29,445 bases of DNA, from positions 1 to 29,445 of the IMG/VR virus record IMGVR_UViG_3300032289_001077; one strand, given 5' to 3'. Positions within the stretch are counted from its first letter, which is position 1, and each line of letters starts with the position of its first letter. Shown one piece after another: positions 1 to 27,274 of this stretch. The notes under the pieces were generated by a model. The model saw only the letters and a list, made by a program, of their open reading frames with translations. It had not been told where the DNA came from and made no database searches. The position numbers and the translations under genes were made by a program. Origin of the DNA: a virus.

Positions 1-422
1 AAACGAACTGTGACTGGCTTGATCGCAGGGTCTGGAGTGACTGTTAAGGCCACGGTATTTCCAGTGCGAGAGACATTAATGGTGCCAATATTCCCATCAT
101 TGTCGATTGTTCCGTATTCGCTGACATTTACATTTGTACCGTCAACAAGAATTGTGAGTTCGGTTGCATAGAACTTGTTGTCCCCTGCAGAGGTCTTTGA
201 TATTGAAACAATATACTTGACCATGCGCCAAACTGTAGCGTCAAAGTTATCAACAACAGTTAAGTTCTCAATACCAGTGATTGTATTTTCATTATTACCT
301 GCAGAACCCAAGTCTGTTGACTGAGCAGTTGCGGTGTCGATTAAATCTACATAATTTTCTTGAGTAGGTCTATCTCCAGTCTGGAATAGACTCTTAACTG
401 ATGGAATTGATACTTTAGCCAT
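1..422 (-). CDS. Virion/tail-associated protein, 3' end outside window
   Basis: The reading frame opens with ATG at 420-422 and stays open for 140 codons to the window edge, so the C-terminus is missing. The N-terminus (MAKVSIPSVKSLFQTGDRPT) and a later segment rich in alternating Val, Thr and Asn look like a beta-rich phage structural protein; I do not recognise a family. The -10 hexamer TATAAT (complement of 429-434) ends 6 nt before the ATG and there is no SD, so the mRNA is probably leaderless. It lies downstream of other small virion-type genes on the same strand. Confidence 0.75.
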   Translation of the reverse strand, partial: MAKVSIPSVKSLFQTGDRPTQENYVDLIDTATAQSTDLGSAGNNENTITGIENLTVVDNFDATVWRMVKYIVSISKTSAGDNKFYATELTILVDGTNVNVSEYGTIDNDGNIGTINVSRTGNTVALTVTPDPAIKPVTVR

Positions 423-454
423 GTGGTAATTATAACCCCCTTTTAATAATATTT

Positions 455-661
455 TTAAAGAATATAGTTGCTGTAGCCAATAACCTGAAGTGGAATTGGA
501 GGTGGATTTGTTTTTGAATATCCAAACACACTTACATTTGTAAACTTAACCCTAAATGGCAAAACCTCTTGAACTCTTGCTTTTGGCTGTAAGTGATCTA
601 TACGAATTTTTCTTAAATCAAGGTCATGAATCTGTGCATGTGCTAATTGATGTGTTGGCAT
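455..661 (-). CDS. Small hypothetical virion-module protein (68 aa)
   Basis: A 68-residue protein with no recognised domain. Its ATG overlaps the TAA of the upstream gene in a TAATG junction at 659-663, typical of termination-reinitiation coupling, which supports both the frame and the start. The C-terminal half (PPPIPLQVIGYSNYIL) is hydrophobic and proline-rich. Its position between tail-type proteins suggests a structural or assembly role, but the sequence itself does not show one. Confidence 0.6.
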   Translation of the reverse strand: MPTHQLAHAQIHDLDLRKIRIDHLQPKARVQEVLPFRVKFTNVSVFGYSKTNPPPIPLQVIGYSNYIL

Positions 662-1050
662 TACTGTGTTATATCTTCAATGATAACCATTGATCCTTTG
701 GCTACCGTCCAAACTCTGCCTTCTGAAAGAAGTTCTGTAAGTTGTATATCGAAGATATCTCCTGTCTGAAGAAGTCTTGATTGAGATGATGTTAGTGTAA
801 CTGTAAAACTTCCTTCTTCATCTTGAAACTCAATAGGCTGAGGGGTTAAATCTAAAATTTTTGTATTTGTTGTTGGACGATAGATATCCATAGCAACTTG
901 CCAATCTTCAAGAAGCAATGGCTGTCTTGCATCATTAGTTACATAAACACGAAATGCTGCTGAATCTCCACGCACAACCGTCCATCTAATTTCTGGTGGT
1001 GCTGCACCTAATGCATAAGAGTCTGTGGGTTGATTTCTAAAAGTTGCCAT
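661..1050 (-). CDS. Virion protein with W-VVRGD N-terminal domain (129 aa)
   Basis: This protein shares its N-terminal pattern (IRWTVVRGDSAAFRVYV) with the protein at 8425-8820 (IQWRVVRGDTGSLRVEF), so the two are probably paralogues. The layout, a short N-terminal strand, a central 'I/F-DIQ-TELL' region and an ending of VWTVAKGSMVIIEDIT, resembles small baseplate or tail-fibre N-terminal domains of the BppU type; that assignment is by general resemblance only. An extended -10 (TGATATAAT) ends 6 nt before the ATG, so it is predicted to be leaderless. The next gene is coupled by TAATG. Confidence 0.75.
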   Translation of the reverse strand: MATFRNQPTDSYALGAAPPEIRWTVVRGDSAAFRVYVTNDARQPLLLEDWQVAMDIYRPTTNTKILDLTPQPIEFQDEEGSFTVTLTSSQSRLLQTGDIFDIQLTELLSEGRVWTVAKGSMVIIEDITQ

Positions 1051-1062
1051 TTGTTTATTATA

Positions 1063-1587
1063 TCACGACAAACCGTCCTTGAGTGCTCCCCAAGTACCGT
1101 TTCCTTTTGCCTCTACTATAACTATTCCATTAACATTGTCTGCAACTGCACAAATTCCCACTGCTGCAGATCCTCCTACTGGCCTAACATTTGTTAAACC
1201 CCCAGATGCTCCTACATAAAGTGTTTGTCCTGCAGCAAATCCAGAAGTATTCAAACCTTCCATAACTCCAGCAACAACCACAATTCCATCAGATCCATTT
1301 GCTGTATTGTTTTTTAATAAACCAAGTATTGGAGCAGTTGTTGATGGAAGTGCTTTTGCTATAGTTACTTTCCCATTTACTTTTCCATTTGTTGCATAAA
1401 CTGGAACACCTGCGCCTATTAAACTACCGCTATTATTATTAATTTCAATCTGAAAATATGACACCCCATACGCTGGAAGGATTGCGTCAAGAGATTCTGC
1501 TAATTTTTTAAAATCTCCGTGTACATTTACTGGTGAGTTTTCAAGGGGATACTTAACCCCAGTATTAGAATTAGCATAAGTAGTCAT
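1063..1587 (-). CDS. Tail-fibre/virion surface protein (174 aa)
   Basis: The frame could extend 6 codons upstream, but the start at 1587 (MTTYANSNTGVKYP) lies 9 nt after a TATAAT and fits the promoter-start pattern seen elsewhere. From about residue 50 the sequence carries a beta-type module with GVPVYATNGKVNGKVTIAKA, then GLNTSGFAAGQTLYVGASGG, then GICAVADNVNGIVIVEA. I know this arrangement from phage tail-fibre and head-decoration proteins, where it forms a compact beta domain exposed on the particle. No enzymatic residues are visible. Confidence 0.75.
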   Translation of the reverse strand: MTTYANSNTGVKYPLENSPVNVHGDFKKLAESLDAILPAYGVSYFQIEINNNSGSLIGAGVPVYATNGKVNGKVTIAKALPSTTAPILGLLKNNTANGSDGIVVVAGVMEGLNTSGFAAGQTLYVGASGGLTNVRPVGGSAAVGICAVADNVNGIVIVEAKGNGTWGALKDGLS

Positions 1588-1649
1588 AATAAAATTATTA
1601 TACACCCAGATTTGACTTTTGACTCAAAATTATGTTATACTTGTCAGTA

Positions 1650-1667
1650 GACACCTACCAGGGTGTC
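1650..1667 (+). promoter_or_regulatory. 5'-leader hairpin upstream of the lysozyme gene
   Basis: GACACC (1650-1655) and GGTGTC (1662-1667) form a perfect 6-bp stem with a TACCAG loop. A TATACT hexamer at about 1636-1641 lies just upstream, so the hairpin would be near the 5' end of the mRNA, followed by an AAGGAGG SD. It may be an RNA stabiliser or an operator that times lysis; this is inference. Confidence 0.45.
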
Positions 1668-1689
1668 ATTGTTTTCTAAGGAGGAAACT

Positions 1690-2250
1690 ATGATTAAATT
1701 TATCGAAAGAAACAAAGAGATCATTAGCACACTCAGTATCGTGGTATTAGTATCAGTTATGTCTAATGCTAATGCTACATCAGAACTAGATACTAAGAAC
1801 AATCTTAGCCTGAAACAGGCTCAGACATTGGAAACTGCCTCGAAAGAGGTTTTTTTGGTTTCTAAAGCAAAAAAACTAGAGAGTTTTGAGAATAAGGTTT
1901 CTCTTACTGATTTAGAATTAAAGGAACTGCTTTCTTTGGTAGGCTTCAAGGGTCAAGACCTTGTCGTTGCTTGGGCAGTGGCAAAGAAAGAATCTAATGG
2001 TCGTCCATTGGCTTTTAACGGCAATCACAAGACTGGTGACTCGTCTTATGGTATGTTTCAAATCAATATGATTGATACGCTTGGTCCTGATCGCAGAACC
2101 AAGTTTGATCTTGACTCTAACGCTGAACTATTCAATCCCGTCAAGAATGCAGAGATTGCATACTATATGACAAATGGTGGAGAAGATTGGTCTTCTTGGA
2201 AAGGCATTACGCCTAAGACCAGAATGTGGATGAGCAAGTTTCCTAAATAA
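1690..2250 (+). CDS. Signal-peptide lysozyme / transglycosylase-like endolysin (186 aa)
   Basis: The start at 1690 is set by the SD AAGGAGG five nt upstream; an upstream ATG at 1663 lacks one. Residues 1-29 form a basic N-end, a hydrophobic core (IISTLSIVVLVSVM) and a small-residue end (SNANA), so export by signal peptide or signal-anchor release is likely. The C-terminal half has the lysozyme/SLT fold signature: AVAKKESNG with the probable catalytic Glu101, then SSYGMFQINM (119-127). It should cleave the glycan backbone of host peptidoglycan. It is the only plus-strand gene in an otherwise minus-strand virion module and overlaps the convergent oxygenase gene by 8 nt. A terminator-like hairpin lies within its own coding sequence. 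Confidence 0.85.
   Translation: MIKFIERNKEIISTLSIVVLVSVMSNANATSELDTKNNLSLKQAQTLETASKEVFLVSKAKKLESFENKVSLTDLELKELLSLVGFKGQDLVVAWAVAKKESNGRPLAFNGNHKTGDSSYGMFQINMIDTLGPDRRTKFDLDSNAELFNPVKNAEIAYYMTNGGEDWSSWKGITPKTRMWMSKFPK
1837..1856 (+). terminator. Terminator-like hairpin inside the lysozyme ORF
   Basis: CCTC-GAAA-GAGG followed by seven T (1838-1856) has the shape of a short intrinsic terminator with a GNRA tetraloop. It lies in codons 50-56 of the lysozyme gene. The stem is only 4-5 bp, so it may be chance or a weak attenuator that lowers lysozyme expression. Confidence 0.3.
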
Positions 2251-2776
2251 TTGGACTGATAAACACCTGTAAGGTTATTCTACTGTTGGATGACTTTACA
2301 GGTGTTATTCCATGTAAATATCCAGAATCGTTCACAACTGCCCTATTAAATTTTGGCTCTATGTTTTTCCATTCCTGAGAGTCTGTATCAAACCAGTTAA
2401 ACATTCCTCCATCGTTATACTCCCAACCTTCATTCAGGTATACGGTTACGGCTCTGGTGTAAATGCCATCCGAATGTACTGGAATATAAGAGTCTTTTGA
2501 CCAAACATAAACCATAGCAGACCTTGAGGTAGTTAAAGGAATATCCCTATTTTTATCAAATACCATCGCATCTTCAAGGATTGACTGTAACTCTGGCAAA
2601 AATTCATCTGGAAGTTTAATACATACAACCACGGAACTATCTCCTACTATCCCTTTGTCCCAGGCTTGGTTTGTCCAAACATGGTTTGGCCCAGACTTAC
2701 CAGAAACAACATCTAGCCCAAACTTATAATATTTATGCGCTATCTCAATTGGCAAAAAATCTTTAAGTTCTTTCAT
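2243..2776 (-). CDS. 2OG-Fe(II) oxygenase (177 aa)
   Basis: The C-terminal half has the double-stranded beta-helix metal site in order: HSD (H101, D103), a distal His in SGYLHGI (H155) and the 2-oxoglutarate-binding Arg in NSRITLQ (R166). The proteins use Fe(II), O2 and 2-oxoglutarate; relatives hydroxylate protein side chains or small molecules. The start at 2776 is chosen because its ATG overlaps the TAA of the upstream oxygenase gene (TAATG); a TTG start four codons further up is possible. It is the last gene of a coupled string that follows the Val-Thr-Pro repeat protein. Substrate is not visible; fibre proline is the suggested one. Confidence 0.85.
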   Translation of the reverse strand: MKELKDFLPIEIAHKYYKFGLDVVSGKSGPNHVWTNQAWDKGIVGDSSVVVCIKLPDEFLPELQSILEDAMVFDKNRDIPLTTSRSAMVYVWSKDSYIPVHSDGIYTRAVTVYLNEGWEYNDGGMFNWFDTDSQEWKNIEPKFNRAVVNDSGYLHGITPVKSSNSRITLQVFISPII

Positions 2777-3372
2777 TATCTCATCCAAGAAACTACTGCG
2801 TATCTTGTTCCCTCTATTACTGGAGAAACCGAATGATTGTATACATATGTTGATGGAAAAAGCAGAAGTTCGTTTGCATTTGGCTTATAAGTTATATTAA
2901 ATCTTGGAAAAACAATCTCCCCGCCTTTATAGTCGTCATTAATATAGTAGACAAGAGAGAGCCTTCTGTGAACTTCTTTGTGATCATCGATATGATTAAG
3001 AAATTTTTGACCTTCTCCGTATTTTAAAATACTGTAAGAATCATGCCAGGTAGTCTCAAGTCGGTATTCTGACTTATATTCTGATTCGGCTGGACCAAAG
3101 GCAACTAAAAACATGTTTGATAGAGTTGCATTAAAAGCCTCATTCAAATTTGTAAAATCTTCAATAATTGAATTTGTGTATGGGACAGCAAATGTAAGTG
3201 TATCTCTATACTCAGTATCTACTTTTACTACGTCATTACTTCTGATATATGACGGAGCCCATTCTTTTTTTGCACTAAACATACCCTCTTCAATATCTGA
3301 AACAAGGCTTGTGTGATTTTCAATTACATCTGAATACACAACTATTCCTGGTGCTAGTTCTTTTTTATTCAT
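2776..3372 (-). CDS. 2OG-Fe(II) oxygenase, prolyl-4-hydroxylase type (198 aa)
   Basis: The pattern is close to P4Hc-domain proteins: HIDDH (H127, D129), then RRLSLVYYINDDYKGGEIVF, then LLLFPSTYVYNHSV with the distal His (H180) and a terminal Arg (R190, TRYAVVSWM). This family hydroxylates prolyl or related residues with Fe(II) and 2-oxoglutarate. The start at 3372 (MNKKELAPG) overlaps the upstream TAA as TAATG; two in-frame ATGs lie just upstream. It is translationally coupled to both neighbours, a Zn-ribbon protein and a second oxygenase, and lies downstream of the proline-rich fibre gene. Confidence 0.88.
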   Translation of the reverse strand: MNKKELAPGIVVYSDVIENHTSLVSDIEEGMFSAKKEWAPSYIRSNDVVKVDTEYRDTLTFAVPYTNSIIEDFTNLNEAFNATLSNMFLVAFGPAESEYKSEYRLETTWHDSYSILKYGEGQKFLNHIDDHKEVHRRLSLVYYINDDYKGGEIVFPRFNITYKPNANELLLFPSTYVYNHSVSPVIEGTRYAVVSWMR

Positions 3373-3611
3373 TACCATTTTCCAATTGGACATACTGCTT
3401 TTTCAAGTTTTGTTTTTACTTTCATAAAGCATCCACATTTTTTACATTGCGTAGTTAATTTTATAAGTTCTGGACATCCCTTACAAATAGAAAATCTTTC
3501 TTTTGCTTTATATTCGTCTGCCCACTCTGTTGTAGGATTTACTATATCCCAAGGTCTTGTTTCACCTAAATTTTGTCTATACTTTTCCCAAGGAGAAAGG
3601 TTTTCTTCCAT
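3372..3611 (-). CDS. Small Cys-rich Zn-ribbon protein (79 aa)
   Basis: Cysteines occur as CKGCPELIKLTTQCKKCGC followed by a later Cys in AVCPIGKW, a pattern typical of small phage zinc-binding proteins (DUF6171-like by memory). The start at 3611 follows the upstream TAA by one base; the longer frame has no better start. In other phages such proteins are found next to 2OG oxygenases near tail genes. Function is unknown; metal binding is inferred from the cysteine spacing. Confidence 0.75.
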   Translation of the reverse strand: MEENLSPWEKYRQNLGETRPWDIVNPTTEWADEYKAKERFSICKGCPELIKLTTQCKKCGCFMKVKTKLEKAVCPIGKW

Positions 3612-3612
3612 T

Positions 3613-3810
3613 TTATTCTGGTGCCTTAAACTCTGTACCGTCCCAAACTGAAAAGTCAGGAACAACTTGATCTTTATCAACAATTATAATTTTAGGGCTA
3701 GACGCTAATCCAGCACGAACTTGAGGACCTTTATTATATTTTTCATCATCAATATCTAGCACCCAAAATACTTCATTGTTTGCTAAGAATACAAATCTTT
3801 CATTTGCCAT
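3613..3810 (-). CDS. Small hypothetical protein (65 aa), first gene of oxygenase operon
   Basis: A 65-residue acidic protein with the ending DFSVWDGTEFKAPE. It has a clear SD (AAAGGAG) and an extended -10 (TGATATACT) about 24 nt upstream, so unlike its neighbours it has a normal leader. It opens the operon that continues with the Zn-ribbon protein and two oxygenases. I recognise the general type, a small protein near tail-fibre genes of marine and freshwater phages, but know no function. Confidence 0.7.
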   Translation of the reverse strand: MANERFVFLANNEVFWVLDIDDEKYNKGPQVRAGLASSPKIIIVDKDQVVPDFSVWDGTEFKAPE

Positions 3811-3852
3811 TTTTTATCTCCTTTCCTTTAAGTATATCATAATCATAAAATA

Positions 3853-6174
3853 TTAGCAATTGTTTATAAATGTGCTACAGTCTGAATCGGTGCATATTTG
3901 GTAATCTGAAGCACATGGAGTACACTCAATAGTGCATCCAGGCGTTACAACAGGAGTTACCACTACTGGTGTTACTACTACTGGGGTTACTACTGCTGGA
4001 GTAAAGTCTGGTGGGAAGAATGGTCCACCACAATTACAGTTGTTTGATAAAACTAGATCTGGACAACTTCCTGGAGTTCTACCCATTGTAACACTTCCAG
4101 TACAACCTTCATCGCACTCGGTAGTATATTGGAATAAAATTGTTTGGCAGTTGTCTACTGGAGTTACAACTGGGGTTACAACTGGGGTAACTACTGGGGT
4201 TACAACTGGGGTAACTACTGGGGTTACAACTGGGGTAACTACTGGGGTAACTCCACCAGGCACACAAGGACCATCTTGATCTATATTTGGACAAGAACCT
4301 GGAGTTATACAAGTTCTGTAATATCTCTCACCTGAAGGACATGATCCATCATCTCTTATTTGTCCATAAGACCCATCTGCTGGATAATATCTATCACATG
4401 TATTGCAATTTACTACAGGAGTAACAACTGGCGTTACTACAGGTGTTACAACTGGAGTAACAACTGGCGTTACTACAGGTGTTACAACAGGTGTTACTGC
4501 GCCAACAGGTCTTCCATCACTATCACAACACTGAGTTGGATCAAAACCACAAGGATCATATGGTGCAGAACATCCTGTTGGTGGTGTGACAACAGGTGTT
4601 ACAACAGGAGTCACAACAGGTGTGACAACAGGTGTGACAACAGGTGTTACCACAGGTGTTACTACAGGTGCAACGTATCCACACTGTGTTGAATTTTGTT
4701 CATAGAACCAATCACTAGCACAATCTATAGTTGAAGATCCGTTAGAGTATGTGCAAACTGCTCTTTCTCTAAAAGTTGTTCCTTCGCAATAACCTTCGTC
4801 ACTGCAACCAATCAGTGTATAGTTTCCTCTATTTATTAGGTTGCTTCCGACACAACTTGGTTGTGCAGGAGTGACAACAGGAGTAACTACAGGTGTTACA
4901 ACAGGAGTAACTACAGGTGTTACAACAGGAGTAACTACAGGTGTTACAGCAGGACAACATTCATGGGTGTCAGGATTATATGTATTTCCTGGTGGGCACT
5001 GCTCTTCATTTGAAGCATAGGCACATCCAGAACCTAATGTATAAGAACAGCACACATATTGTTGACTATTAGTTCCATTTGAATAGTAAACAGTATCCAG
5101 TCTTTCTCCACCTTGTGGACAATATGGATCTGCTATACATGTTCCGATTGTTCTACTTATTTCTGTTACAGGAGTTACTACTACAGGTGGAACCCAAGGT
5201 CTTCCATCACTATCACAACAAGTGTCTCCACATGGTGAATCATAACTTGAAGTCATGCCAGGGAATGGGCATGTTGCTGGTGTTACAACTACAGGTGTAA
5301 CTACTACAGGTGTAACTACTACAGGAGTTACAACTTCAGGTGTTACAACAGGAGTCACAACAGGAGTTACAACAGGAGTTACAACTTCAGGTGTTACAAC
5401 AGGAGTCACAACAGGAGTTACAACAGGAGTTACAACAGGAGTTACAACAGGAGTTACAACTTCAGGTGTTACAACAGGAGTCACAACAGGAGTCACAACA
5501 GGAGTCACAACAGGCGTTACGACAGGTGGGACTGCTACTCCTTCATAAACATCTCCAAATAAAACCCAAGAATCAGTATCAACTTTTACAATAGTTCCTT
5601 TGCTATACTGACCATCTAAAAATAATTGAGAATTTTTACTACCAATCAACACACCTGAAGAAGGAGAAAATGTTGTTTTTCCTGTTCCAACTTCAATAAA
5701 GTTGTATTGATATCCAACGGGTATTTGAACAGAAGAATTAGATGGAACAGTTAATGTCATTCCAGATGAAGTATTGAGCAAAATTGTTTTCCCAGCATCT
5801 GCAACTGATAATTGAAAGTTAGTTGTTTTTGTAACAACTGTTGTTTGAAGTGCAATAGATGAAGATAAACTGTTAATTTGATTCTGCAGATTAGTATTTG
5901 CAGTAGTTCTATTTGTTACTTCTGTTGCTAAATTTGTTGCTGCCGTGGTAGCATTTGTGGCATCTGTATTTGCTAACGCTTTTAAATATCCTGCAATTGA
6001 TTTTGTATTTATACCGTTTGGTGTTCCAAGTTCATTAGCGGTAGGAATTGTGCTTGATCCATAATGGTAGAGTCTTAAAGCCTCTTGGATGTCTGCTGCA
6101 TCTGCATAGCCAGGAATTCTGGTTGGGTATATCCCAGAGCCATCTAGCGTATCATCAACATATTCATTAGCCAT
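3853..6174 (-). CDS. Modular virion fibre protein with Val-Val-Thr-Pro repeat tracts and Cys-rich modules (773 aa)
   Basis: The N-terminal part (residues 1-70) is a phage structural segment. Residues 72-108 form a low-complexity Thr/Asn/Ala coiled-coil-like stretch (TEVTNRTTANTNLQNQI). Residues 118-207 form a beta module (NFQLSVADAGKTILLNT, LTVPSNSSVQIPVG, TFSPSSGVLIGSK, IVKVDTDSWVLFGD) that is common in tail fibres. From residue 217 on, tracts of (VVTP)n alternate with about seven cysteine-rich modules of 20-60 residues. The protein ends in one such module. The tracts should form extended polyproline-like spacers and the modules disulfide knots on the particle exterior. TGGTATAAT lies 17 nt before the ATG. 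The downstream operon encodes two prolyl-hydroxylase-type oxygenases. Confidence 0.85.
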   Translation of the reverse strand: MANEYVDDTLDGSGIYPTRIPGYADAADIQEALRLYHYGSSTIPTANELGTPNGINTKSIAGYLKALANTDATNATTAATNLATEVTNRTTANTNLQNQINSLSSSIALQTTVVTKTTNFQLSVADAGKTILLNTSSGMTLTVPSNSSVQIPVGYQYNFIEVGTGKTTFSPSSGVLIGSKNSQLFLDGQYSKGTIVKVDTDSWVLFGDVYEGVAVPPVVTPVVTPVVTPVVTPVVTPEVVTPVVTPVVTPVVTPVVTPVVTPEVVTPVVTPVVTPVVTPEVVTPVVVTPVVVTPVVVTPATCPFPGMTSSYDSPCGDTCCDSDGRPWVPPVVVTPVTEISRTIGTCIADPYCPQGGERLDTVYYSNGTNSQQYVCCSYTLGSGCAYASNEEQCPPGNTYNPDTHECCPAVTPVVTPVVTPVVTPVVTPVVTPVVTPAQPSCVGSNLINRGNYTLIGCSDEGYCEGTTFRERAVCTYSNGSSTIDCASDWFYEQNSTQCGYVAPVVTPVVTPVVTPVVTPVVTPVVTPVVTPPTGCSAPYDPCGFDPTQCCDSDGRPVGAVTPVVTPVVTPVVTPVVTPVVTPVVTPVVNCNTCDRYYPADGSYGQIRDDGSCPSGERYYRTCITPGSCPNIDQDGPCVPGGVTPVVTPVVTPVVTPVVTPVVTPVVTPVVTPVDNCQTILFQYTTECDEGCTGSVTMGRTPGSCPDLVLSNNCNCGGPFFPPDFTPAVVTPVVVTPVVVTPVVTPGCTIECTPCASDYQICTDSDCSTFINNC
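3943..5530 (-). repeat. Tandem 12-nt repeat tracts coding (Val-Val-Thr-Pro)n
   Basis: Blocks of a 12-bp unit lie at about 3943-4004, 4155-4255, 4413-4500, 4583-4675, 4865-4950 and 5275-5530, separated by unique sequence. Each block uses its own preferred synonymous codons (for example CAACTGGGGTAA near 4180 against CAACAGGAGTTA near 5400), which indicates that blocks expanded independently after they were seeded. Such tracts are prone to unit gain and loss. Confidence 0.85.
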
Positions 6175-6193
6175 TACATATCACCACTTTAGA

Positions 6194-6781
6194 TTATACC
6201 ACCGTAATTAGGAAATGAATGTATACAGTCCTGTTTAGTCCAATCCAATCACCATCTGAAAATTCAACGGCATTTATATCAACAGGTAGAACCTGATCTC
6301 CAGTACCTGATCTAAAAACTAATGGTTTAACAGTTATGGAGTGAGCAATAGGGTTTCCTGGGTCAGAGAATGTGCACTGAATATTAAAGTTTTCTTCAGT
6401 AAGTCCACCTATAAGGCTTAATGGTGCTATGTTTGATACTTTAAAGTCTACCTCGCTTGTTGTCTTTCCATTTGTAAAAGAAACCTCTCGTATAACGCTA
6501 AATTTGTCTGTCATAAGGGTTGCTGTGCTAACCCATGTATTTACTCCAGACACATTTTGATATTGATACATAACAAGGTAGTCCTCGTCTGTTGCCTGAA
6601 CATTAATATATAAATCAAGTAACTGTAAATCAGAAACATGGGATATAGTATTTGGATTTCCGTATCCTACAAGAAAAAGGTTTCCTCTTTCTCCTTGTGG
6701 TCCAAAATCAACTTCAACATTAACGTTGGCTGTACCACCAATTACTTTAACATCGTCGGATGATACAAAAATGTTTGTCAT
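6194..6781 (-). CDS. Virion/tail-associated protein (195 aa)
   Basis: The start at 6781 is chosen because its ATG overlaps the upstream TGA in an ATGA junction. The sequence is beta-rich, with a short collagen-like piece (FGPQGERG) near residue 27 and repeated polar strands; no catalytic motif is seen. It lies in a coupled string with the B-repeat protein upstream and the Val-Thr-Pro fibre downstream, so a role in the adhesion apparatus is likely. Confidence 0.75.
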   Translation of the reverse strand: MTNIFVSSDDVKVIGGTANVNVEVDFGPQGERGNLFLVGYGNPNTISHVSDLQLLDLYINVQATDEDYLVMYQYQNVSGVNTWVSTATLMTDKFSVIREVSFTNGKTTSEVDFKVSNIAPLSLIGGLTEENFNIQCTFSDPGNPIAHSITVKPLVFRSGTGDQVLPVDINAVEFSDGDWIGLNRTVYIHFLITVV

Positions 6782-7410
6782 GCAACTGTCCACTTAGGGT
6801 AGAGTTTTACATCTTCATTAACAAGAGCAATAGTTGATCCTGCTGTATAAAGAGTTCCACTACCGTCGGAGAACTTTGTCCATCCAGCAAAAGTAAATCC
6901 AATTCTTGCGAGTGTTCCATTGTTTGCAACGATAATGTTTTGTCGTGGAAGATACAAATTTGTGTCTGTTGGAACAGTACCACTAGTTGCGTTTGTATTA
7001 TGATATATAACTCTATAAGTTGGTATTGCTCTATTAGGAGTTCCAATATCTTGAGTTACATCATCTGTTACAGAAATAGATCCAGTTAAAAGTGTAAAAA
7101 TTTTATCGTATGTTCCTGCCCCTTGTGAATATACCTGAATATCATACACATAGGTAATAGAAGAATTCATTGCTGCTCCATTTTCTGGAGTTATTGCACA
7201 AGTAATATGTGTTCCATCTGTTGAGATTATTGCACTTCCAGTAATTTGTTCTGCAACTCCTGCTGCACCTCTAACTTTTGCAATTTTAAATGTAGCATTA
7301 CTGTAGTCATCTAATTGAAAAATAGATCCATCAGTCTTTTGAGGGTATACCTTAAACTCATGGGTGTCACCCTTATAGTAGTTTATATTAAGTTCTCCTG
7401 GAAATGCCAT
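6778..7410 (-). CDS. Virion adhesin with YKGD-type N-terminal domain and C-terminal InlB B-repeat (210 aa)
   Basis: The start at 7410 (MAFPGELNINYYKGDTHEF) is set by TGGTATAAT ending 6 nt upstream; the longer open frame upstream overlaps the previous gene. Residues 1-120 resemble the domain in the 661-1050 and 8425-8820 proteins (KGD..F.V, ATFKIAKVRG, YDIQVYSQG, TGSISVTDDVT). Residues about 135-210 match the Listeria-Bacteroides repeat (InlB B-repeat, Flg_new): RIGFTFAGWTKFSDGSGTLY followed by AGSTIA and a terminal LYPKW. That repeat is a beta-grasp-like surface domain in bacterial adhesins. On a phage tail it would be a receptor-binding or spacer domain. Confidence 0.82.
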   Translation of the reverse strand: MAFPGELNINYYKGDTHEFKVYPQKTDGSIFQLDDYSNATFKIAKVRGAAGVAEQITGSAIISTDGTHITCAITPENGAAMNSSITYVYDIQVYSQGAGTYDKIFTLLTGSISVTDDVTQDIGTPNRAIPTYRVIYHNTNATSGTVPTDTNLYLPRQNIIVANNGTLARIGFTFAGWTKFSDGSGTLYTAGSTIALVNEDVKLYPKWTVA

Positions 7411-7417
7411 GGTTTTA

Positions 7418-8140
7418 TTATACCACGCTGACGTATACAGAATTAAGTATTGCAGATGAGTCAAAGTCTGTTCTAATTTGAGGAATAGCACCATTACCCC
7501 ACATTGCTTGGTTTTCAATAAATATATTTTGTGTTACTGATAGGTTATAGGTATTTTGATACTTAAGAGATCCTACAAACTGCACAAACTCTTGATCATT
7601 TGCTGCAAAATAAGTTCTTAGCCAAACCTCTGTGTTTGATGTGTATGTTGTTAGTTCAAAGTTGTATGTTATGAATACTTGGGATCCTTCTTTTATACCG
7701 TGGAAGTTTAAGGCTCTTTGATGACTATTCCAAAGACTAGTGCAACCTTCTGGAAGGTATTTTTCATTTTGGTTTTTATCTTTTGTGTCTAATAGAAGAG
7801 TTACCCAGCCATCTTCTCCTTGAGAGATTCCAAGTTTTGTTGGTTTGTCAATAGTGTTTGTATATGAGGCCCATCCTGCTTGCTGCCCCGAAGAAGACAA
7901 AGCACTTTGTCCTGCTGGACCACGATCTCCTCTAGGACCAGGATCTCCCTTTGGACCTGGCAAACCTTGCTCTCCATCTCTGCCATCTCTACCTGCAGGT
8001 CCTTGTGGTCCAACTGGGCCAGGGACTGGAAGAAATGAAAGAGCATTATCTGCAGTAGGAGATGCCTGACTTTGTTCTACTTGTGCAGCATACGAAGTTT
8101 TTTTTGCACTTGGAAAATCCATAGATTTAGAAACGGCCAT
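7418..8140 (-). CDS. Collagen-like virion fibre protein (240 aa)
   Basis: Residues 41-77 are twelve uninterrupted GXY triplets ([20 protein letters not shown] and on), expected to form a trimeric collagen-like helix. The N-terminal 40 residues would anchor it and the C-terminal 160 residues form a beta-rich head ([40 protein letters not shown]). A GATAAT hexamer with upstream TGA ends 6 nt before the ATG. Proline in the X and Y positions makes it a candidate substrate of the nearby oxygenases. Confidence 0.85.
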
Positions 8141-8167
8141 GAGATCATTATCTCACTTTATTATAAT

Positions 8168-8425
8168 TTACCATGCTCCTGGTGTCCAAGCAATTCTTTT
8201 CCAAATTTGGGTAGAGCCGTTTGTATAGTTTGCAATACAAAAGTAGAAGTAGTCAGATGAAGTTGCAAACATTCCAGCAACGTCTCCACTTCTTCCAAGC
8301 ATTGAGTTGGGAACTTGTCCAGGGATCACATAAGTATCTCCTGCTGGTCCTCTTGCTCCAGGTTCTCCTGGATCTCCCTTATCTCCAACTGCGCCTGGCA
8401 TTGGAACAATCTTAATAACTGCCAT
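8168..8425 (-). CDS. Short collagen-like virion protein (85 aa)
   Basis: The start at 8425 (MAVIKIVPMP) overlaps the upstream TAA in a TAATG junction. Residues 11-28 are six GXY triplets (GAVGDKGDPGEPGARGPA). The C-terminal 55 residues contain GRSGDVAGMFATSSDYFYFC and a closing IWKRIAWTPGAW, a small module also seen at the ends of phage collagen-like fibres. It is likely a fibre subunit like its downstream neighbour. Confidence 0.8.
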   Translation of the reverse strand: MAVIKIVPMPGAVGDKGDPGEPGARGPAGDTYVIPGQVPNSMLGRSGDVAGMFATSSDYFYFCIANYTNGSTQIWKRIAWTPGAW

Positions 8426-8820
8426 TATAGTGTACCTCCTGGTGTAACATCTCCTAGAACATATATAGTTCCAATAACTGGTGTCCAAACTGTGTCTTCT
8501 ATTAACTCTGGGATTGTTACCTGGACATCAAATGGTAACTCCGCTACTGTTCTATTATATTTTAATCCCCAATTTTTAGTAACTGAAGGATAAGCCTTTA
8601 TATCAACAAAGCCTTCTCCAGGCTCACAATCAAGGGCATCAAGAACATTACCAGACTGGTCATAAGCGGTTGCTCTAAAAATCCAACCAGTAGTATCATA
8701 AAAATCTATCTCGTTGTCTTCTAGAAACTCAACACGTAGAGAACCAGTATCTCCTCTGACAACACGCCATTGGATGTTTGCTGGATCAGCACCGAATATT
8801 TCTGTAGAATGGGTAGACAT
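8425..8820 (-). CDS. Virion protein with W-VVRGD N-terminal domain (131 aa)
   Basis: Paralogue of the protein at 661-1050: both begin with an IxW-VVRGD strand, keep a central FDVQVTIPEL / FDIQLTELL element and end with a VW(T)xxxGxxxVxxD strand. It is the first gene of the leftward virion string here. TGGTATAAT (complement of 8827-8835) ends 6 nt before the ATG and there is no SD, so it is predicted leaderless. Structural role inferred from context. Confidence 0.78.
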   Translation of the reverse strand: MSTHSTEIFGADPANIQWRVVRGDTGSLRVEFLEDNEIDFYDTTGWIFRATAYDQSGNVLDALDCEPGEGFVDIKAYPSVTKNWGLKYNRTVAELPFDVQVTIPELIEDTVWTPVIGTIYVLGDVTPGGTL

Positions 8821-8837
8821 ATTGAGATTATACCACG

Positions 8838-8893
8838 AAAAAAAGACTAGTACTCAGGCTGGTGGGTATGAGAGACAAACCAGAGTACTAGTC
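8838..8893 (-). terminator. Strong leftward intrinsic terminator
   Basis: GACTAGTACT (8845-8854) pairs perfectly with AGTACTAGTC (8884-8893); after a CAGG bulge CTGGT (8859-8863) pairs with ACCAG (8879-8883). On the minus strand the stem is followed by seven T (8838-8844). It should end leftward transcription from the holin-like gene just before the promoter of the 8820 gene. Confidence 0.85.
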
Positions 8894-9111
8894 AAATTAA
8901 ATTATATCATATCAGTACAATCTGGACAGTGATATTTAAAGTTATCAAATTGTTATAATTGTAATAATTGAAAATGTCCGTTTTATACTACTTTGTAATA
9001 AAGCATCAGGATGTCGGATGGTGTATACTTAAAATATATAAGAAAAAAGAACTATCTTTAAGGTTTGTATTTAAAAGATATCTTATATATTATATATAGT
9101 ATATAGCAGAA
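8894..9111. other. AT-rich intergenic region with AATGTCCGTTTTATAC box
   Basis: There is no ORF of credible length. It holds two TATAAT/TATACT-like hexamers, a perfect AAGATATCTT palindrome near 9077 and the 16-mer AATGTCCGTTTTATAC at 8973-8988. The same 16-mer occurs at 13098-13113 in the central regulatory hub. The region separates the holin-like gene from the virion module. Confidence 0.6.
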
Positions 9112-9378
9112 TTATTTATTATTTTTGGCAATGTGCTCAATTAAAATTTTATACATTTCGTCAAGTTTCTTTTCTTGTCTGTCTCGTGCCAATAAAGAGT
9201 CTACTCTTTGATCCTCAAGTGCATCTTCTAATCTATTAATTTGATCTTTTACCGATGAGCCACCATTTGTTTTAAGTTCGCTGAGATAATGTTTTACAAG
9301 CCACTTGATTGATAAACCGATTGATGATACAATTGTAAGGATGGCTACTAATAATGAGGCCCAATCCTGTATTGTCAT
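9112..9378 (-). CDS. Holin-like small membrane protein (88 aa)
   Basis: Residues 8-30 form a single membrane helix (LLVAILTIVSSIGLSIKWLV), followed by a basic, coiled-coil-prone cytoplasmic tail with SELKTNGGSSVKDQINRLE. A short membrane helix followed by an 'ELKxNGGSS' segment is a pattern I associate with small membrane proteins near the lysis genes of actinobacteriophages, annotated as holin-like. It lies about 7 kb from the lysozyme, so the assignment rests on the protein itself. TATAAT lies 9 nt before the ATG. Confidence 0.7.
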   Translation of the reverse strand: MTIQDWASLLVAILTIVSSIGLSIKWLVKHYLSELKTNGGSSVKDQINRLEDALEDQRVDSLLARDRQEKKLDEMYKILIEHIAKNNK

Positions 9379-9410
9379 AATAATGTTATTATAAGGGGTA
9401 TTTTACAAAA

Positions 9411-10181
9411 ATGAAAACAGCCATACTTAAAACACTTGAGTATTCTAAGAATTTAATTATATCTCCTGACATGGATGGTTTTATGACCGCAAAATTATTA
9501 GAGCGTTTTAACGGTTCGAAAATAGTTGGTTCGTATGACAAAAATATTTTATGTCTCGCCGACGGTATCAATGCAGAAGATTGTTTGTTCGTCGATTGCG
9601 ATATGAATCGAGAAGAGTTTGTATCTCTCGGAAATCATATGCGATTGATAGAGGACGGTATGTCTTCTAAGTCGTTTAATCCGAATGTTCACTTCGGCGT
9701 TACGACATATAGCGACAAGTTTCCATATGCAACCGCTTTTTTAATTTCGTTCGCAACAGAGGTTCAAACCTCCTCTTTAGACCTTATACGCATGGCTTTC
9801 GCTGATTCAACTCTAAAGAACATGGAGAAGTACAGCGATAACATGCGAAACTGGTCTACACGGATGGATCATTCTGCAGTTAAGTACATTACAGACAATT
9901 CGGACATTGCACGGGATAACGATAAGCAAGCAAGATTTGATTATGTAGACCAATCATTTACATCTAAACGTTATGGCAAGCAAAGATACCTGGATACCCT
10001 TAATAACGCCCTACAAGGCCAGGAGATGGCTTTTGAGCCACTAGTCCAGGGTATGAAGTATGTGTGCGATAAAGTTGGCAAAGAAACCCTTATAAGGTAT
10101 AATAGAGATATCATATCTTATGCAGAAATATTTACAGGGGAGTACTCTGTAACTTACGATCAAGAAAAGGAATGGACATGA
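9411..10181 (+). CDS. Possible DHH-type phosphoesterase-like protein (256 aa)
   Basis: The N-terminus has SPDMDGFMTAKLLERF (about 18-33) and then LFVDCDMNREEF, spaced like motifs I and II of DHH/RecJ-type phosphoesterases; a His-containing segment NHMRLIEDG follows. The classic DHH triad is not seen, so this is tentative. The C-terminal half (about 130-256) is polar and helical. The first 350 bases use many CG-containing codons (TCG, CGA, GAC-GGT), unlike the rest of the gene and its neighbours. TATTTT ends 6 nt before the ATG. It is the first gene of a three-gene operon. Confidence 0.6.
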   Translation: MKTAILKTLEYSKNLIISPDMDGFMTAKLLERFNGSKIVGSYDKNILCLADGINAEDCLFVDCDMNREEFVSLGNHMRLIEDGMSSKSFNPNVHFGVTTYSDKFPYATAFLISFATEVQTSSLDLIRMAFADSTLKNMEKYSDNMRNWSTRMDHSAVKYITDNSDIARDNDKQARFDYVDQSFTSKRYGKQRYLDTLNNALQGQEMAFEPLVQGMKYVCDKVGKETLIRYNRDIISYAEIFTGEYSVTYDQEKEWT

Positions 10182-10363
10182 CAAAAGAAGAAGCAATATC
10201 AATTATGCTAAATAGCATTAATTCAGACAATTTAGCACTAGGCATTCAGGCTGGATTAAAAGAAGAAGATTTAAAGTTACAGATTGAGCAGAGCCAGCAA
10301 AGTCTTAACTTCATGATGGCAAACATCTATGACAAGTTGAAGGATGGTGGAGTAATTGCCTAA
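10178..10363 (+). CDS. Small hypothetical protein (61 aa)
   Basis: The start at 10178 overlaps the upstream TGA in ATGA, with AAAGGA as SD; an ATG two codons upstream is less well placed. The protein is predicted helical and Gln/Leu rich (EEDLKLQIEQSQQSLNFMMA). No family recognised. Confidence 0.7.
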   Translation: MTKEEAISIMLNSINSDNLALGIQAGLKEEDLKLQIEQSQQSLNFMMANIYDKLKDGGVIA

Positions 10364-10556
10364 GTTCTATTACAAGCCAATACTTGAAAAGGTTCAAGAA
10401 GTTTATCTTGAGAATGCTAAGAAAGAATATTTTGCAGGGTTTGATATTGAGTCAAATGTGAGACTTGTTATTGAAGCAGATACTGAAGAGTCGGCAGATA
10501 TTTCTAGATATGGGTTTGTTGATATACGTATGTGGGAATTAACGAGTGAGAGTTAA
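10356..10556 (+). CDS. Small hypothetical protein, TTG start (66 aa)
   Basis: The frame opens with TTG at 10356, preceded by GGTGGAG, and overlaps the upstream gene by 8 nt. There is no internal ATG near the N-terminus. The sequence (KFYYKPILEKVQEVYLENA, VRLVIEADTEESADISRYGF) is well behaved but unrecognised. It ends the small operon begun at 9411. Confidence 0.65.
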   Translation: MPKFYYKPILEKVQEVYLENAKKEYFAGFDIESNVRLVIEADTEESADISRYGFVDIRMWELTSES

Positions 10557-10615
10557 TCTCAATCCCTCAAAATTTTAATAAAGTCAAAAACAAATAACAG
10601 ATATTAAAAAATTAA

Positions 10616-10702
10616 TTATTCTGGCTTTGGTTCTGATCTATGAGGACTCTTGCATGTGCACTCTGCACAGCAATTCTCCCCTGTGTATGTATCTTCAGTC
10701 AT
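10616..10702 (-). CDS. Micro-protein with CCxxCxC cluster (28 aa)
   Basis: This 28-codon ORF (MTEDTYTGENCCAECTCKSP...) is too short for usual gene finding. Its support is the extended -10 TGATATAAT ending exactly 6 nt before the ATG, the same geometry as other genes here. Its CCAECTC motif matches CCDDCAC at the C-terminus of the protein encoded just upstream. It is probably a metal-binding peptide; function unknown. Confidence 0.55.
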   Translation of the reverse strand: MTEDTYTGENCCAECTCKSPHRSEPKPE

Positions 10703-10727
10703 AGAACCATTATATCACAGTTTGGAA

Positions 10728-10922
10728 CTATTTTGAGCAAGCGCAATCATCACAGCAGGCCTCTTTAAACATCTTGAGTGCCAAACCATCATTTTCTGGT
10801 CTTCCTAGGTCTTGCCAGAAAACCTCTCTACCCATGTTATCTGTTATAGGCATAGGTTTTGATTCGAACTCAGGCTTATCTCCTATGTCCCAGGAATTTT
10901 CTAGGTTATCCAATATTCCCAT
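10728..10922 (-). CDS. Small protein with C-terminal CCxxCxC motif (64 aa)
   Basis: The start at 10922 (MGILDNLENSWD) has AAGAGG upstream and overlaps the sulfotransferase-like gene by 17 nt. The middle contains PITDNMGREVFWQDLGRPEN and the protein ends in ACCDDCACSK, a likely metal site. Downstream lies the 28-aa ORF with the same cysteine motif. No named family. Confidence 0.65.
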   Translation of the reverse strand: MGILDNLENSWDIGDKPEFESKPMPITDNMGREVFWQDLGRPENDGLALKMFKEACCDDCACSK

Positions 10923-11556
10923 ATTCTGCCTCTTCTCTGTAGTATCTTTTATATAGTTCGTCAATGTTTGATTGAATATTGCTTATTTCTTTGCTATATT
11001 CAGATTTAAACATTTCCTCTATATCCTTTTTCTCTTTTGCTTCTTGTCTTGGAAAGTTATTTAAGTATGGACTGTTTTCTTTATTTAGTGTATAGGAATG
11101 GATATCGCTGTAGTATGCATTACAGATGTTTATCATCTGCTGTTTTGTAAACCTTTGTACCGCAGAATATTCTGAAAAATTTTTTATCATCACATCTATA
11201 ACCTTGTTGTGATCTTCTGTAAATTCCTTAAATGGTGCAATAAAGAATTCGTCGTTATCAATAAGGTATTCTGTGTATTCTGTATATCTTTGGATAAGTT
11301 CTTCTGGGTCACCCGTTCTTTTATCGTGCTCTCTTATATTGTTTTGTTTTTTGTAATCTCTAAACAACTTTGCAGAAACAATTGATGGAAGGGCATCTCT
11401 AACTGGAACTACGAATAGCGATCCTTTTTCTTTTTCTTTAAGACATAAAACATCATGAGCAAATAGTGGTGAGATTTCTATCCCAAGAGTACTTATTACA
11501 CAGGCAGTTAGGTATGTATTTCCAGATCTTTCAAAACCATCTATGTATATGGTCAT
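10906..11556 (-). CDS. Sulfotransferase-like P-loop protein (216 aa)
   Basis: The N-terminus MTIYIDGFERSGNTYLTACV has the 5'-phosphosulfate-binding P-loop of PAPS-dependent sulfotransferases (xxRSGNTxL), and VVPVRDALPSIVSAKL about 55 residues later fits the 3'-phosphate-binding helix. The family transfers sulfate from PAPS to sugars, peptides or small molecules. The rest is helical and lysine-rich. The ATG at 11556 has GGGGAG as SD; a GTG at 11589, nine nt after another TATAAT, would add 11 residues. A second sulfotransferase-like gene lies at 28435. The substrate is not visible. Confidence 0.72.
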   Translation of the reverse strand: MTIYIDGFERSGNTYLTACVISTLGIEISPLFAHDVLCLKEKEKGSLFVVPVRDALPSIVSAKLFRDYKKQNNIREHDKRTGDPEELIQRYTEYTEYLIDNDEFFIAPFKEFTEDHNKVIDVMIKNFSEYSAVQRFTKQQMINICNAYYSDIHSYTLNKENSPYLNNFPRQEAKEKKDIEEMFKSEYSKEISNIQSNIDELYKRYYREEAEYGNIG

Positions 11557-11736
11557 CTCTAACTCCCCAAAATTATAGGATTTCTCCACTAATGTTTAAT
11601 TATAGCATAAATCTGAAAAATTTTGTAAATCCAAATATGCTAAAATCTGAATATTTTGTTCAGATGTATGATGCCGAATTTTAAAAACAACACATCAAAA
11701 ATATAGTGAGCACATAATGAGAGACTAATTAATTTA

Positions 11737-11770
11737 GTAGGAGGCACCAGTAATAACTACTGGCACCTAC
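11737..11770 (-). terminator. Hairpin downstream of leftward small-gene operon
   Basis: CCAGTA (11747-11752) pairs with TACTGG (11758-11763) and GTAGG (11737-11741) with CCTAC (11766-11770), with an internal loop between. It lies just past the stop codon at 11794 of the leftward operon. No long T-run follows, so it may be a terminator with poor U-tract or an mRNA 3' stabiliser. Confidence 0.5.
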
Positions 11771-11793
11771 CTAATAAACTACACTACACCCTG

Positions 11794-12084
11794 CTAACTA
11801 ACTTTTGTGAGTATGGGTGTTATCTTGCGATCTAGATAGGCTTTCATTTTCTCATTGTCTTTCTGTTGCTTGATGTCAATGTTAGTAATGCCTATGTCTT
11901 TTAGCACCTTGCTAGTTTCAATGACAATAGTTTTAGCGAATGCAACACCTAATAGTTTTAGACCTAAAGGAATTGCTACTACTGCACCAATAACTAACAC
12001 CATAGTGACTACTGCACCAAAGATAAGAAAGTATCCTATCCAATCAAATAAAACACTAAAGGGATTTGTGAACCAATCAAACAA
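11794..12084 (-). CDS. Membrane protein, TTG start (96 aa)
   Basis: Residues about 10-50 hold two hydrophobic stretches (YFLIFGAVVTMVLVIGAVVA and LGLKLLGVAFA), then an amphipathic polar tail (KVLKDIGITNIDIKQQKDNE). The frame starts at TTG 12084 with GAGG upstream and overlaps the previous gene by 8 nt. It is the last gene of a leftward string of tiny genes. It might be a membrane-acting or lysis-helper protein; nothing specific is seen. Confidence 0.65.
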   Translation of the reverse strand: MFDWFTNPFSVLFDWIGYFLIFGAVVTMVLVIGAVVAIPLGLKLLGVAFAKTIVIETSKVLKDIGITNIDIKQQKDNEKMKAYLDRKITPILTKVS

Positions 12085-12448: not shown

Positions 12449-12663
12449 TATTTACACTCCTCACAAGGACACTGTGGGAACTCACGCTCTAACTTAATCT
12501 TGTTAGCGAGAGCCATAACCTTATTGTAGGTATCAGCACTAGCACCTCTAAAGGATACTAGTTCTCCATTGGCTACCATAGTAGCACCCAATAGGATACG
12601 CTGTTCTAGGTCTAGGTGACCAAACTTAGAATGTTTAATTGTGTTTTTATCTAGTGTATTCAT
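12448..12663 (-). CDS. Small protein with C-terminal CPCEECK motif (71 aa)
   Basis: It begins MNTLDKNTIKHSKFGHLDLE and contains ILLGATMVANGELVSFRGAS, ending in QCPCEECK. The regular helix content and C-terminal cysteines suggest a small metal-stabilised protein; no family is recognised. It is the first gene of the leftward string and follows an about 300-nt leader with repeats. Confidence 0.7.
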   Translation of the reverse strand: MNTLDKNTIKHSKFGHLDLEQRILLGATMVANGELVSFRGASADTYNKVMALANKIKLEREFPQCPCEECK

Positions 12664-12734
12664 TTAATAAATACCTTTCTTTTAATACTGTTAGCACTTT
12701 GCTAACTGTTTTCCTTGACCTAGGTTATTTGCTG

Positions 12735-12781
12735 TTTATTTGCTACGCTCACCTTATTTCTAAGTTTATTTGGTAGGCTCA
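12735..12781 (-). repeat. Direct repeat copy 1 (TTATTTGCTACGCTCAC ... TTATTTGGTAGGCTCA)
   Basis: This unit holds two halves, TTATTTGCTACGCTCAC and TTATTTGGTAGGCTCA, about 13 nt apart. It recurs at 12887-12934. Each half is a variant of TTATTTGnTAnGCTCA. Inverted variants lie at 14136-14152 and 14171-14187. Confidence 0.75.
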
Positions 12782-12886
12782 ACAGGCTCACTAGGATTTC
12801 TTATTTAATTGTTATAGTAGTAATACTACCATAGGGCACTGACATTTTGACCCTTTTTAGGGGGTGTGTCTATGTGATTTAGGTCA

Positions 12887-12934
12887 CTTATTTGCTACGC
12901 TCACCCTATACTCTAGGTTTATTTGGTAGGCTCA
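12887..12934 (-). repeat. Direct repeat copy 2
   Basis: Same two-half unit as at 12735-12781, with a different spacer. Both copies lie in the predicted untranslated leader of the leftward operon, so they could act either as DNA operators or as RNA elements. Confidence 0.75.
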
Positions 12935-12974
12935 TTGACCTTAATTAACTCTATTTAATTTTTCTTATACTAGT

Positions 12975-13003
12975 ATAATAACACATCTACCCTCAAAAGT
13001 CAA
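12975..13003 (-). promoter_or_regulatory. Leftward promoter TTGACT-17-TATTAT
   Basis: On the minus strand TTGACT (complement of 12998-13003) is spaced 17 bp from TATTAT (complement of 12975-12980). It overlaps a TATACT palindrome that could also be read rightward. It would drive the leftward small-gene operon after an about 300-nt leader. Confidence 0.55.
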
Positions 13004-13024
13004 GTCCTAATACGGCGTGTCGCG

Positions 13025-13089
13025 TGTGATCTTCATCACATAGGGGCCCCGAGGCCCTGTGGTGTACATCACATGTGTTCTACATCACA
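13025..13089. promoter_or_regulatory. Three CRP-like palindromes upstream of the 13196 operon
   Basis: TGTGATCTTCATCACA (13025-13040) is a perfect TGTGA-N6-TCACA site; TGTGGTGTACATCACA (13058-13073) and TGTGTTCTACATCACA (13074-13089) each have one mismatch and abut. This is the consensus of CRP/FNR-family regulators, including the GlxR/Crp proteins of actinobacteria. Centres lie about 118, 85 and 69 bp before the predicted start of transcription. Confidence 0.7.
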
Positions 13090-13138
13090 ATGTCCACAAT
13101 GTCCGTTTTATACCCCCCTAAATGTCAGACCCCCCTGC

Positions 13139-13183: not shown

Positions 13184-13195
13184 AAAGGAATTCAA

Positions 13196-13772: not shown

Positions 13773-13776
13773 AAAA

Positions 13777-13791: not shown

Positions 13792-13795
13792 GCGA

Positions 13796-13811: not shown

Positions 13812-13842
13812 TAAAAAATGTCCGTTTTGTGCGTGTCTAAAC

Positions 13843-13909: not shown

Positions 13910-13920
13910 AAAGGGTCAAA

Positions 13921-26640: not shown

Positions 26641-27204
26641 TTAAGCAAACCTTAACTCATAGTCCTTATCTTTAGTAAACCACATAGGTATAGCATATCT
26701 TTCTTCATCAATAGTTTTTACTTCGTGCAATTCTGAGGACTCGAACATAACTAAATCTCCAAATTCAGGAACAATATTTAGGGTAAGTCTTGGAAACTCT
26801 AATGGGCTAGACTTATAGTTAGTACTTAAATATAATATAGCACTATACACATAGTGTTTGTTGGCCCCACCCTCTATGTCTTGGTGCATAGGAACATCTG
26901 CTCCAGGCAATTGTTTTGTTAACCATATAGATGAAAGATAAACCTCTTCAGTCTCCTGGAATTGATTCACTACAGATTTTATAGAAAAGTCAATTACATT
27001 CTTTATTTCTTTTTCTATTTCATCTAGGCCAAAAATAACTCCTTCTGAAGATATTTTACGTAAATTGTCTTTGCCAAACATTTTTTGAAATTTAAGTTTT
27101 TTTGGTCCAGTTACAAAAGAGTCTTGATTTTTATTTATATAATCAATTATAGATTGTGCATCTTTAACATTTATGCAGTTTTTTAACAACTTTACTGGCT
27201 TCAT
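26641..27204 (-). CDS. 2OG-Fe(II) oxygenase (187 aa)
   Basis: MHQD (H107, D109), YSAILYLS, LEFPRLTLNIVPEFGDLVMF, ELHEVK (H160) and ERYAIPMWF (R169) give the complete metal and 2-oxoglutarate site in family order. It is the third such enzyme in the window, closer to the 2776-3372 protein than to the 2243-2776 one. TGGTATACT ends 7 nt before the ATG at 27204, so it is probably leaderless; the longer frame contains that promoter. It lies beside a luciferase-like monooxygenase and a sulfotransferase-like gene. Confidence 0.85.
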   Translation of the reverse strand: MKPVKLLKNCINVKDAQSIIDYINKNQDSFVTGPKKLKFQKMFGKDNLRKISSEGVIFGLDEIEKEIKNVIDFSIKSVVNQFQETEEVYLSSIWLTKQLPGADVPMHQDIEGGANKHYVYSAILYLSTNYKSSPLEFPRLTLNIVPEFGDLVMFESSELHEVKTIDEERYAIPMWFTKDKDYELRFA

Positions 27205-27274
27205 AATTATAAGTATACCACAATAGAGCCTATCTAAATACATTCAATATTTTCACATATGATATAATTAAAAT

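Follow-up and report, generated by a model that had tools for sequence, protein, structure and literature searches.

The window analysed here is the whole of a 29,445-base virus record of IMG/VR (IMGVR_UViG_3300032289_001077), probably a fragment of the genome of a tailed phage. On its minus strand, from position 8820 down to 2243, lies a fibre module that encodes successively a conserved protein, a short and a longer collagen-like protein, two further conserved proteins, a large proline-rich fibre, a 65-aa open reading frame (ORF), a DUF6171 protein and two 2-oxoglutarate (2OG)-Fe(II) oxygenases, here called OxyB and OxyA. The 773-aa fibre contains 53 VTP motifs, of which 50 have the VVTP form that an earlier inspection of the sequence alone had noticed. 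Its proline ladder is 217 aa long, whereas 2,000 composition shuffles gave 5.5 on average and never more than 71; its residues 60-220 match structural and tail PHROGs. Here, we compare this locus with its relatives and argue that OxyB probably serves, within a swappable fibre-modification cassette, as the dedicated prolyl hydroxylase of the proline-repeat fibre whose gene lies just upstream.

Two oxygenases behind a proline-rich fibre

The sequence-only reading had described two oxygenases with an intact HxD...H...R motif, lying in a coupled operon directly after the fibre gene. Both enzymes are recognized by the PF13640 profile (64 bits for OxyB and 43 bits for OxyA; curated cutoff 27), and the iron triad and 2OG-binding arginine are invariant, as H134/D136/H187/R197 across 23 OxyB relatives and as H105/D107/H159/R170 across 7 OxyA relatives. 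The genes overlap, the start of OxyB (3393) preceding the stop of the DUF6171 gene (3372) and the TTG start of OxyA (2788) preceding the stop of OxyB (2776), so "coupled operon" is a fair description. "Directly after" is less exact: the oxygenases are downstream of the fibre in the same run of genes, but the 65-aa ORF and the DUF6171 gene intervene.

An AlphaFold2 model of OxyB (predicted local distance difference test, pLDDT, 91.6) has a double-stranded beta-helix fold. Its top match in the PDB is 3gze, an algal prolyl 4-hydroxylase (P4H) with bound (Ser-Pro)5 (E=1.2e-10, template modelling score 0.66), followed by a Dictyostelium prolyl hydroxylase and the Pseudomonas putida P4H and, lower in the ranking, by the vP4H of Chlorella virus PBCV-1. 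The best sequence-profile match, 5hv0 (the Bacillus anthracis P4H, E=1.6e-7), agrees with the fold search. Judged from the model and the profiles, the nearest structural and sequence relatives of OxyB are prolyl hydroxylases. OxyA has only a weak match to such enzymes (PHD2, E=0.11); our guess is that, as a second hydroxylase, it probably acts on another residue of this fibre.

The oxygenase and the fibre repeat across loci

Relatives of OxyB occur at 76 viral loci (44-84% identity) and those of OxyA at 9, where they adjoin OxyB. In cultured phages there are only remote relatives of either, mostly in cyanophages, hundreds of whose records hold 2OG oxygenase genes; a megablast of window positions 1-12000 against cultured phages found no match, and for neither OxyB nor the neutral marker used below was a relative confirmed among the GTDB species genomes. 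Gene order is kept in the relatives. The large ORF that precedes OxyB is almost without exception proline-rich, although its repeats vary: (VVTP)n, (VTPA)n, (TP)n, (APTPV)n, (APTPP)n or (APVTP)n. Within IMG/VR, a proline-ladder ORF precedes 51 of the 53 distinct OxyB genes, some of whose loci had been located by means of OxyB itself. Of the remaining two, one has the ladder in a short fragment, and the other lies behind a second cassette. Together with the covariation described below, this indicates that a proline-repeat substrate is available to OxyB.

The co-occurrence also holds at loci chosen without regard to the enzyme, which were fetched through the fibre N-terminus and through a conserved neighbour tied to neither fibre nor enzyme. 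Merging fibres that shared more than half of their 6-mers gave 62 clusters. With these clusters, which are not independent, and a ladder rule adjusted after the data had been seen (an earlier version missed PP spacing and mislabelled several proline-rich clusters), either OxyB or NACTY, a second oxygenase family named for its KHKDDNACTY motif, was present in 45 of 53 proline-ladder clusters and in none of the 9 ladder-free ones (Fisher p=1.2e-6). For OxyB alone the figures were 29/53 and 0/9 (p=0.002), and when labels were shuffled only within phage groups at 95% marker identity the association persisted (p=0.006). Counted by ORFs of at least 180 aa, an OxyB/NACTY-type oxygenase followed within 1.5 kb in 81 of 101 with a ladder versus 27 of 531 without. 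One ladder-free cluster, L283 (L numbers denote loci), carries a different PF13640-type gene. Two phages with a 98% identical marker form a matched pair: L185 has a threonine-rich fibre with a radical S-adenosylmethionine (SAM) enzyme, a glycosyltransferase and an epimerase, whereas L199 has a proline-rich fibre with the same kinds of enzyme plus OxyB.

The sequence of OxyB itself follows that of the repeat. Over 60 distinct pairs, OxyB distance correlated with distance in the proline-flanking residues (Mantel r=0.49, p=1e-4), and the partial correlation given neutral marker distance was 0.52 (41 pairs). The DUF6171 gene, which is short and hence has noisier distances, gave r=0.16 (p=0.065), falling to about zero given OxyB, whereas OxyB retained r=0.42 given DUF6171. 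For the pre-fibre gene the correlation was 0.09, and for the fibre's own N-terminus 0.34, with OxyB keeping r=0.43 when the N-terminus was allowed for. Linkage alone would give closer genes an equal or higher correlation; since those of DUF6171 and the pre-fibre gene are lower, OxyB appears to track the repeat independently of linkage and, as the partial correlation given the marker indicates, of phage background. On the OxyB tree, 17 of the 18 VTP-type enzymes fall in one clade, and 2 changes suffice where shuffling requires a mean of 15.8.

A second fibre type enlarges this picture. At several loci another fibre, with (PPFF)n repeats and in most cases a cysteine-rich end, is encoded at a different place in the same genomes; the one such fibre submitted to Pfam, that of L294, has an fn3 domain. 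Oxygenases belonging to other subfamilies of the OxyB family lie behind the (PPFF)n fibre at all 9 listed loci with downstream DNA; behind that of L251 (14564) none of the three tested families was present.

On this comparative evidence, the proline repeats of the neighbouring fibre are the most likely target of OxyB. The enzyme would be made together with the fibre, and proline in the polyproline-II-like (VVTP)n arms would be hydroxylated before assembly, either stiffening the arms or readying them for further modification.

The cassette slot and the remainder of the window

The unit that is exchanged would comprise the fibre, the DUF6171 protein (perhaps an adaptor) and enzymes that differ from cassette to cassette. 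Proline-ladder fibres would be paired with OxyB, another 2OG-like oxygenase or both, in many cases alongside glycosyltransferases, and threonine-rich, ladder-free fibres with radical SAM and/or PF11397 enzymes. DUF6171 is found in nearly every cassette. In L214 (6908-8095), L271 (7397-8605) and L306 (6153-7355) it is fused to a PF11397 glycosyltransferase of the N-acetylglucosamine (GlcNAc) type (Pfam was run on L214 only), which suggests the adaptor role. These fusions also tie an uncharacterised zinc-type domain to fibre modification.

Other occupants of the slot are diverse. The model of NACTY (pLDDT 91.3) is closest to PHD2 and AlkB, and profile-profile comparison found no link of OxyB with NACTY, OxyA or the cupin family. 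In Synechococcus phage S-T4 (L328:7371-8531, YP_009810783.1) a NACTY domain (55-163) and an OxyB domain (255-386) are joined in a single 386-aa ORF. This fusion is annotated "ferrochelatase", a label shared by phrog_2954 and phrog_3531; these PHROGs match the same oxygenase families, so the label looks wrong. Behind threonine-rich fibres of the TTTTTAA type, radical SAM/SPASM and/or PF11397 enzymes occupy the slot, and L136 (1532-6086), L185 and L283 are mucin-like examples in which both enzyme kinds do so. Elsewhere GT61-cupin fusions, FucT-like proteins, epimerases and one weak sulfotransferase match are found. By eye, some fibres, among them L283:2399-5392, L242:1970-4885 and those of L119 and L286, seem to end in a Hint/intein-type domain after the repeats. 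In L294 (13749-18244), L200 (13730-18768) and L188 (14861-19330) the (PPFF)n fibre is followed by two OxyB-like oxygenases flanking a protein some 255 aa long; further on, L294 has a third PF13640 gene of a different kind, with a homologue in L200.

That hydroxylation might offer sites for further modification, as the sequence-only reading supposed, is plausible in the relatives, where PF11397 (E ~1e-36), GT61 and FucT-like genes adjoin OxyB; beside the window's own pair no glycosyltransferase was identified. We considered PF11397 as a partner specific to hydroxyproline and rejected it: the family shows no association with proline ladders (15/53 versus 4/9 clusters), and since it also accompanies threonine-rich fibres without OxyB, it is not tied to hydroxyproline.

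The features of the window are collected in Table 1, where the two collagen-like proteins and the distant third oxygenase of the sequence-only reading reappear. Its two "sulfotransferase-like" proteins (10906-11589 and 28435-29013) fared worse, having a P-loop-like RSGN motif by eye and no support from Pfam or PHROGs. The protein beside the third oxygenase (27275-27949) has a weak PF00296 luciferase-like monooxygenase match, below cutoff (E=0.0035). A tRNA-Asp (GTC) lies at 20585-20659 (ARAGORN and Rfam). Some 1.6 kb (12663-14254) lack ORFs of 60 aa or more and hold tiny ORFs and, by eye, repeated motifs ('ATTTGCTACGCTCACC' and GTGATGTAAATCACA-like stretches); Rfam found no match there.

Table 1. 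Genes of the fibre module and the third oxygenase of the window
Feature	Position	Strand	Evidence
OxyA, second 2OG-Fe(II) oxygenase, 181 aa (start TTG 2788 or ATG 2776)	2243..2788	-	PF13640 E=9.4e-11; relatives adjoin OxyB
OxyB, P4H-like 2OG-Fe(II) oxygenase, 205 aa	2776..3393	-	PF13640 E=2.6e-17; model fold; 76 relatives
Zinc-type DUF6171 protein of 79 aa, characteristic of the cassette slot; candidate adaptor	3372..3611	-	PF19668 E=1.1e-6
65-aa ORF between fibre and DUF6171	3613..3810	-	Small ORFs of variable sequence at the same place in many relatives
Fibre, 773 aa, proposed substrate: N-terminal domain conserved; six blocks of (VVTP)n; inserts rich in Cys (40 Cys)	3853..6174	-	
Conserved protein with FGPQGERG motif, immediately upstream of fibre	6194..6793	-	Synteny in relatives
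YYKGDT protein, C-terminal List_Bact-like repeat	6778..7518	-	phrog_1084 E=4.3e-11; PF09479 E=1e-4 (below cutoff)
Collagen-like protein, 13 GXY triplets	7418..8140	-	PF01391 E=2.4e-6
Small collagen-like protein, 7 GXY triplets	8168..8425	-	Triplet count
Third 2OG-Fe(II) oxygenase, far right, outside the fibre cassette	26641..27243	-	PF13640 E=5.5e-9

Candidate substrates and known counterparts

The oxygenases might instead modify the fibre elsewhere than at proline, by beta-hydroxylation of threonine, valine, alanine or residues of the cysteine domains, with proline serving only to shape the polypeptide. We think this improbable, though worth keeping in mind. The repeats are indeed rich in threonine besides proline, and NACTY and the cupin-like proteins bring different 2OG/cupin families into the same slot. 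However, the fibres with the densest threonine runs, which lack a proline ladder, are without OxyB and NACTY; the repeats linked to OxyB keep their proline while its neighbour varies (T, A, P, S or F); (PPFF)n fibres, with little threonine in the repeat, also have OxyB-like enzymes; and the nearest folds of OxyB are those of prolyl hydroxylases.

Somewhat less probable still is that these are general auxiliary genes, acting on host EF-Tu, nucleotides, DNA or small molecules, and placed near the fibre by chance or by an insertion hot spot. The P. putida P4H, a close fold match, was solved in complex with EF-Tu, some remote relatives are found among cyanophage replication genes, and several PHROG labels of the superfamily are nucleic-acid ones. 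Hot-spot linkage does not, however, predict that OxyB should track the repeat type when DUF6171 and the pre-fibre gene do not, nor the complete lack of OxyB and NACTY in ladder-free clusters, nor the pairing with a second, (PPFF)n fibre.

That the enzymes hydroxylate the nearby collagen-like proteins, as in animal collagen, seems very unlikely for the window. The sequence-only reading had suggested that the phage hydroxylates its own fibre proteins of both kinds; the proline-rich fibre gained comparative support, but a link to the collagen-like proteins did not. Collagen-like genes do lie a few kb upstream, and in ACG-2014f one such gene stands close to a tail fibre gene, a glycosyltransferase gene and an OxyB-like gene. 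However, collagen-like genes are present at 29/29 testable proline-ladder loci irrespective of the enzyme behind the fibre, and also at the only ladder-free locus that could be tested; the GXY tracts of the window are short with only two triplets each having proline at Y (the position on which collagen P4H acts); and OxyB sequence tracks the fibre repeat.

Several observations weigh against a hydroxylase dedicated to the fibre. Identity between OxyB and known P4Hs in the fold alignments is low (about 12-21%). For PBCV-1, virion hydroxyproline was sought and not detected though its P4H is active on peptides, according to the passage on this enzyme in PMC7019647. Eight proline-ladder clusters have neither OxyB nor NACTY, and no OxyB was seen in the examined stretch of 26 (VVTP)3-bearing viral contigs from outside the group, many of them incomplete. 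Finally, cultured cyanophages have remote OxyB and OxyA relatives in replication or other non-fibre regions as well, which shows that the superfamily is not confined to fibre loci. With these points counted, a fibre-dedicated prolyl hydroxylase remains the explanation that we consider probable.

Each of the closest known systems shares only some features with OxyB. The Chlamydomonas enzyme Cr-P4H-1 (3gze, 2jig) gives the best fold match and binds a (Ser-Pro)5 peptide, but it is eukaryotic and 14-15% identical; it acts on cell-wall hydroxyproline-rich glycoproteins. The P4Hs of P. putida (4iw3) and B. anthracis (5hv0), strong fold and best profile matches respectively, are bacterial enzymes, and we know of no fibre partner for them. 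The 2OG-Fe(II) oxygenases of T4-like cyanophages (phrog_61 and the "ferrochelatase" phrog_3531) belong to the same superfamily, and the S-T4 protein combines NACTY and OxyB domains, but they are annotated as oxygenases, ferrochelatases or auxiliary genes, and only some are found by tail fibres. In protists a prolyl hydroxylase acts with the Skp1 GlcNAc-transferase, which we take to be a member of PF11397. That Skp1 pathway (PMC3515798, PMC11570480) pairs a P4H-like enzyme with glycosylation of hydroxyproline, and OxyB relatives adjoin PF11397 genes, but here PF11397 also occurs with threonine-rich fibres lacking OxyB. The PBCV-1 P4H (5c5t; fold match E=1.3e-8) is, like OxyB, virus-encoded, small and P4H-like, and is stated to hydroxylate proline-containing peptides (Eriksson 1999, cited in PMC9301287 and PMC7019647); it comes, however, from a eukaryotic algal virus, and the passages on it in these sources mention neither a cassette linked to a fibre nor covariation with a repeat.

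A survey of viral genes comments that viral use of prolyl 4-hydroxylase "remains cryptic" (PMC9301287, in its passage on this enzyme), and a full-text literature search, with most subscription papers outside its scope, found no publication that connects a proline-repeat fibre with a prolyl hydroxylase of a phage. From the way in which enzyme and repeat covary, a concrete substrate can be named and the repeat on which each enzyme acts can be predicted. More tentatively, and with doubt slightly outweighing confidence, we suggest that a large group of uncultured, probably tailed phages builds fibres that are rich in hydroxyproline and in part glycosylated, viral equivalents of plant extensins and mucins, by means of swappable cassettes whose enzymes would be matched to the repeats: P4H-like oxygenases for proline ladders, with subfamilies for VTP, TP/APTPV and PPFF, and radical SAM enzymes and glycosyltransferases for threonine-rich fibres, DUF6171 being a shared adaptor. 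If this is true, bacterial viruses make hydroxyproline fibres and exchange each fibre together with its modifier, with implications for the way in which fibres are built and hosts recognized; they would also provide a source of small prolyl hydroxylases with differing repeat preferences.

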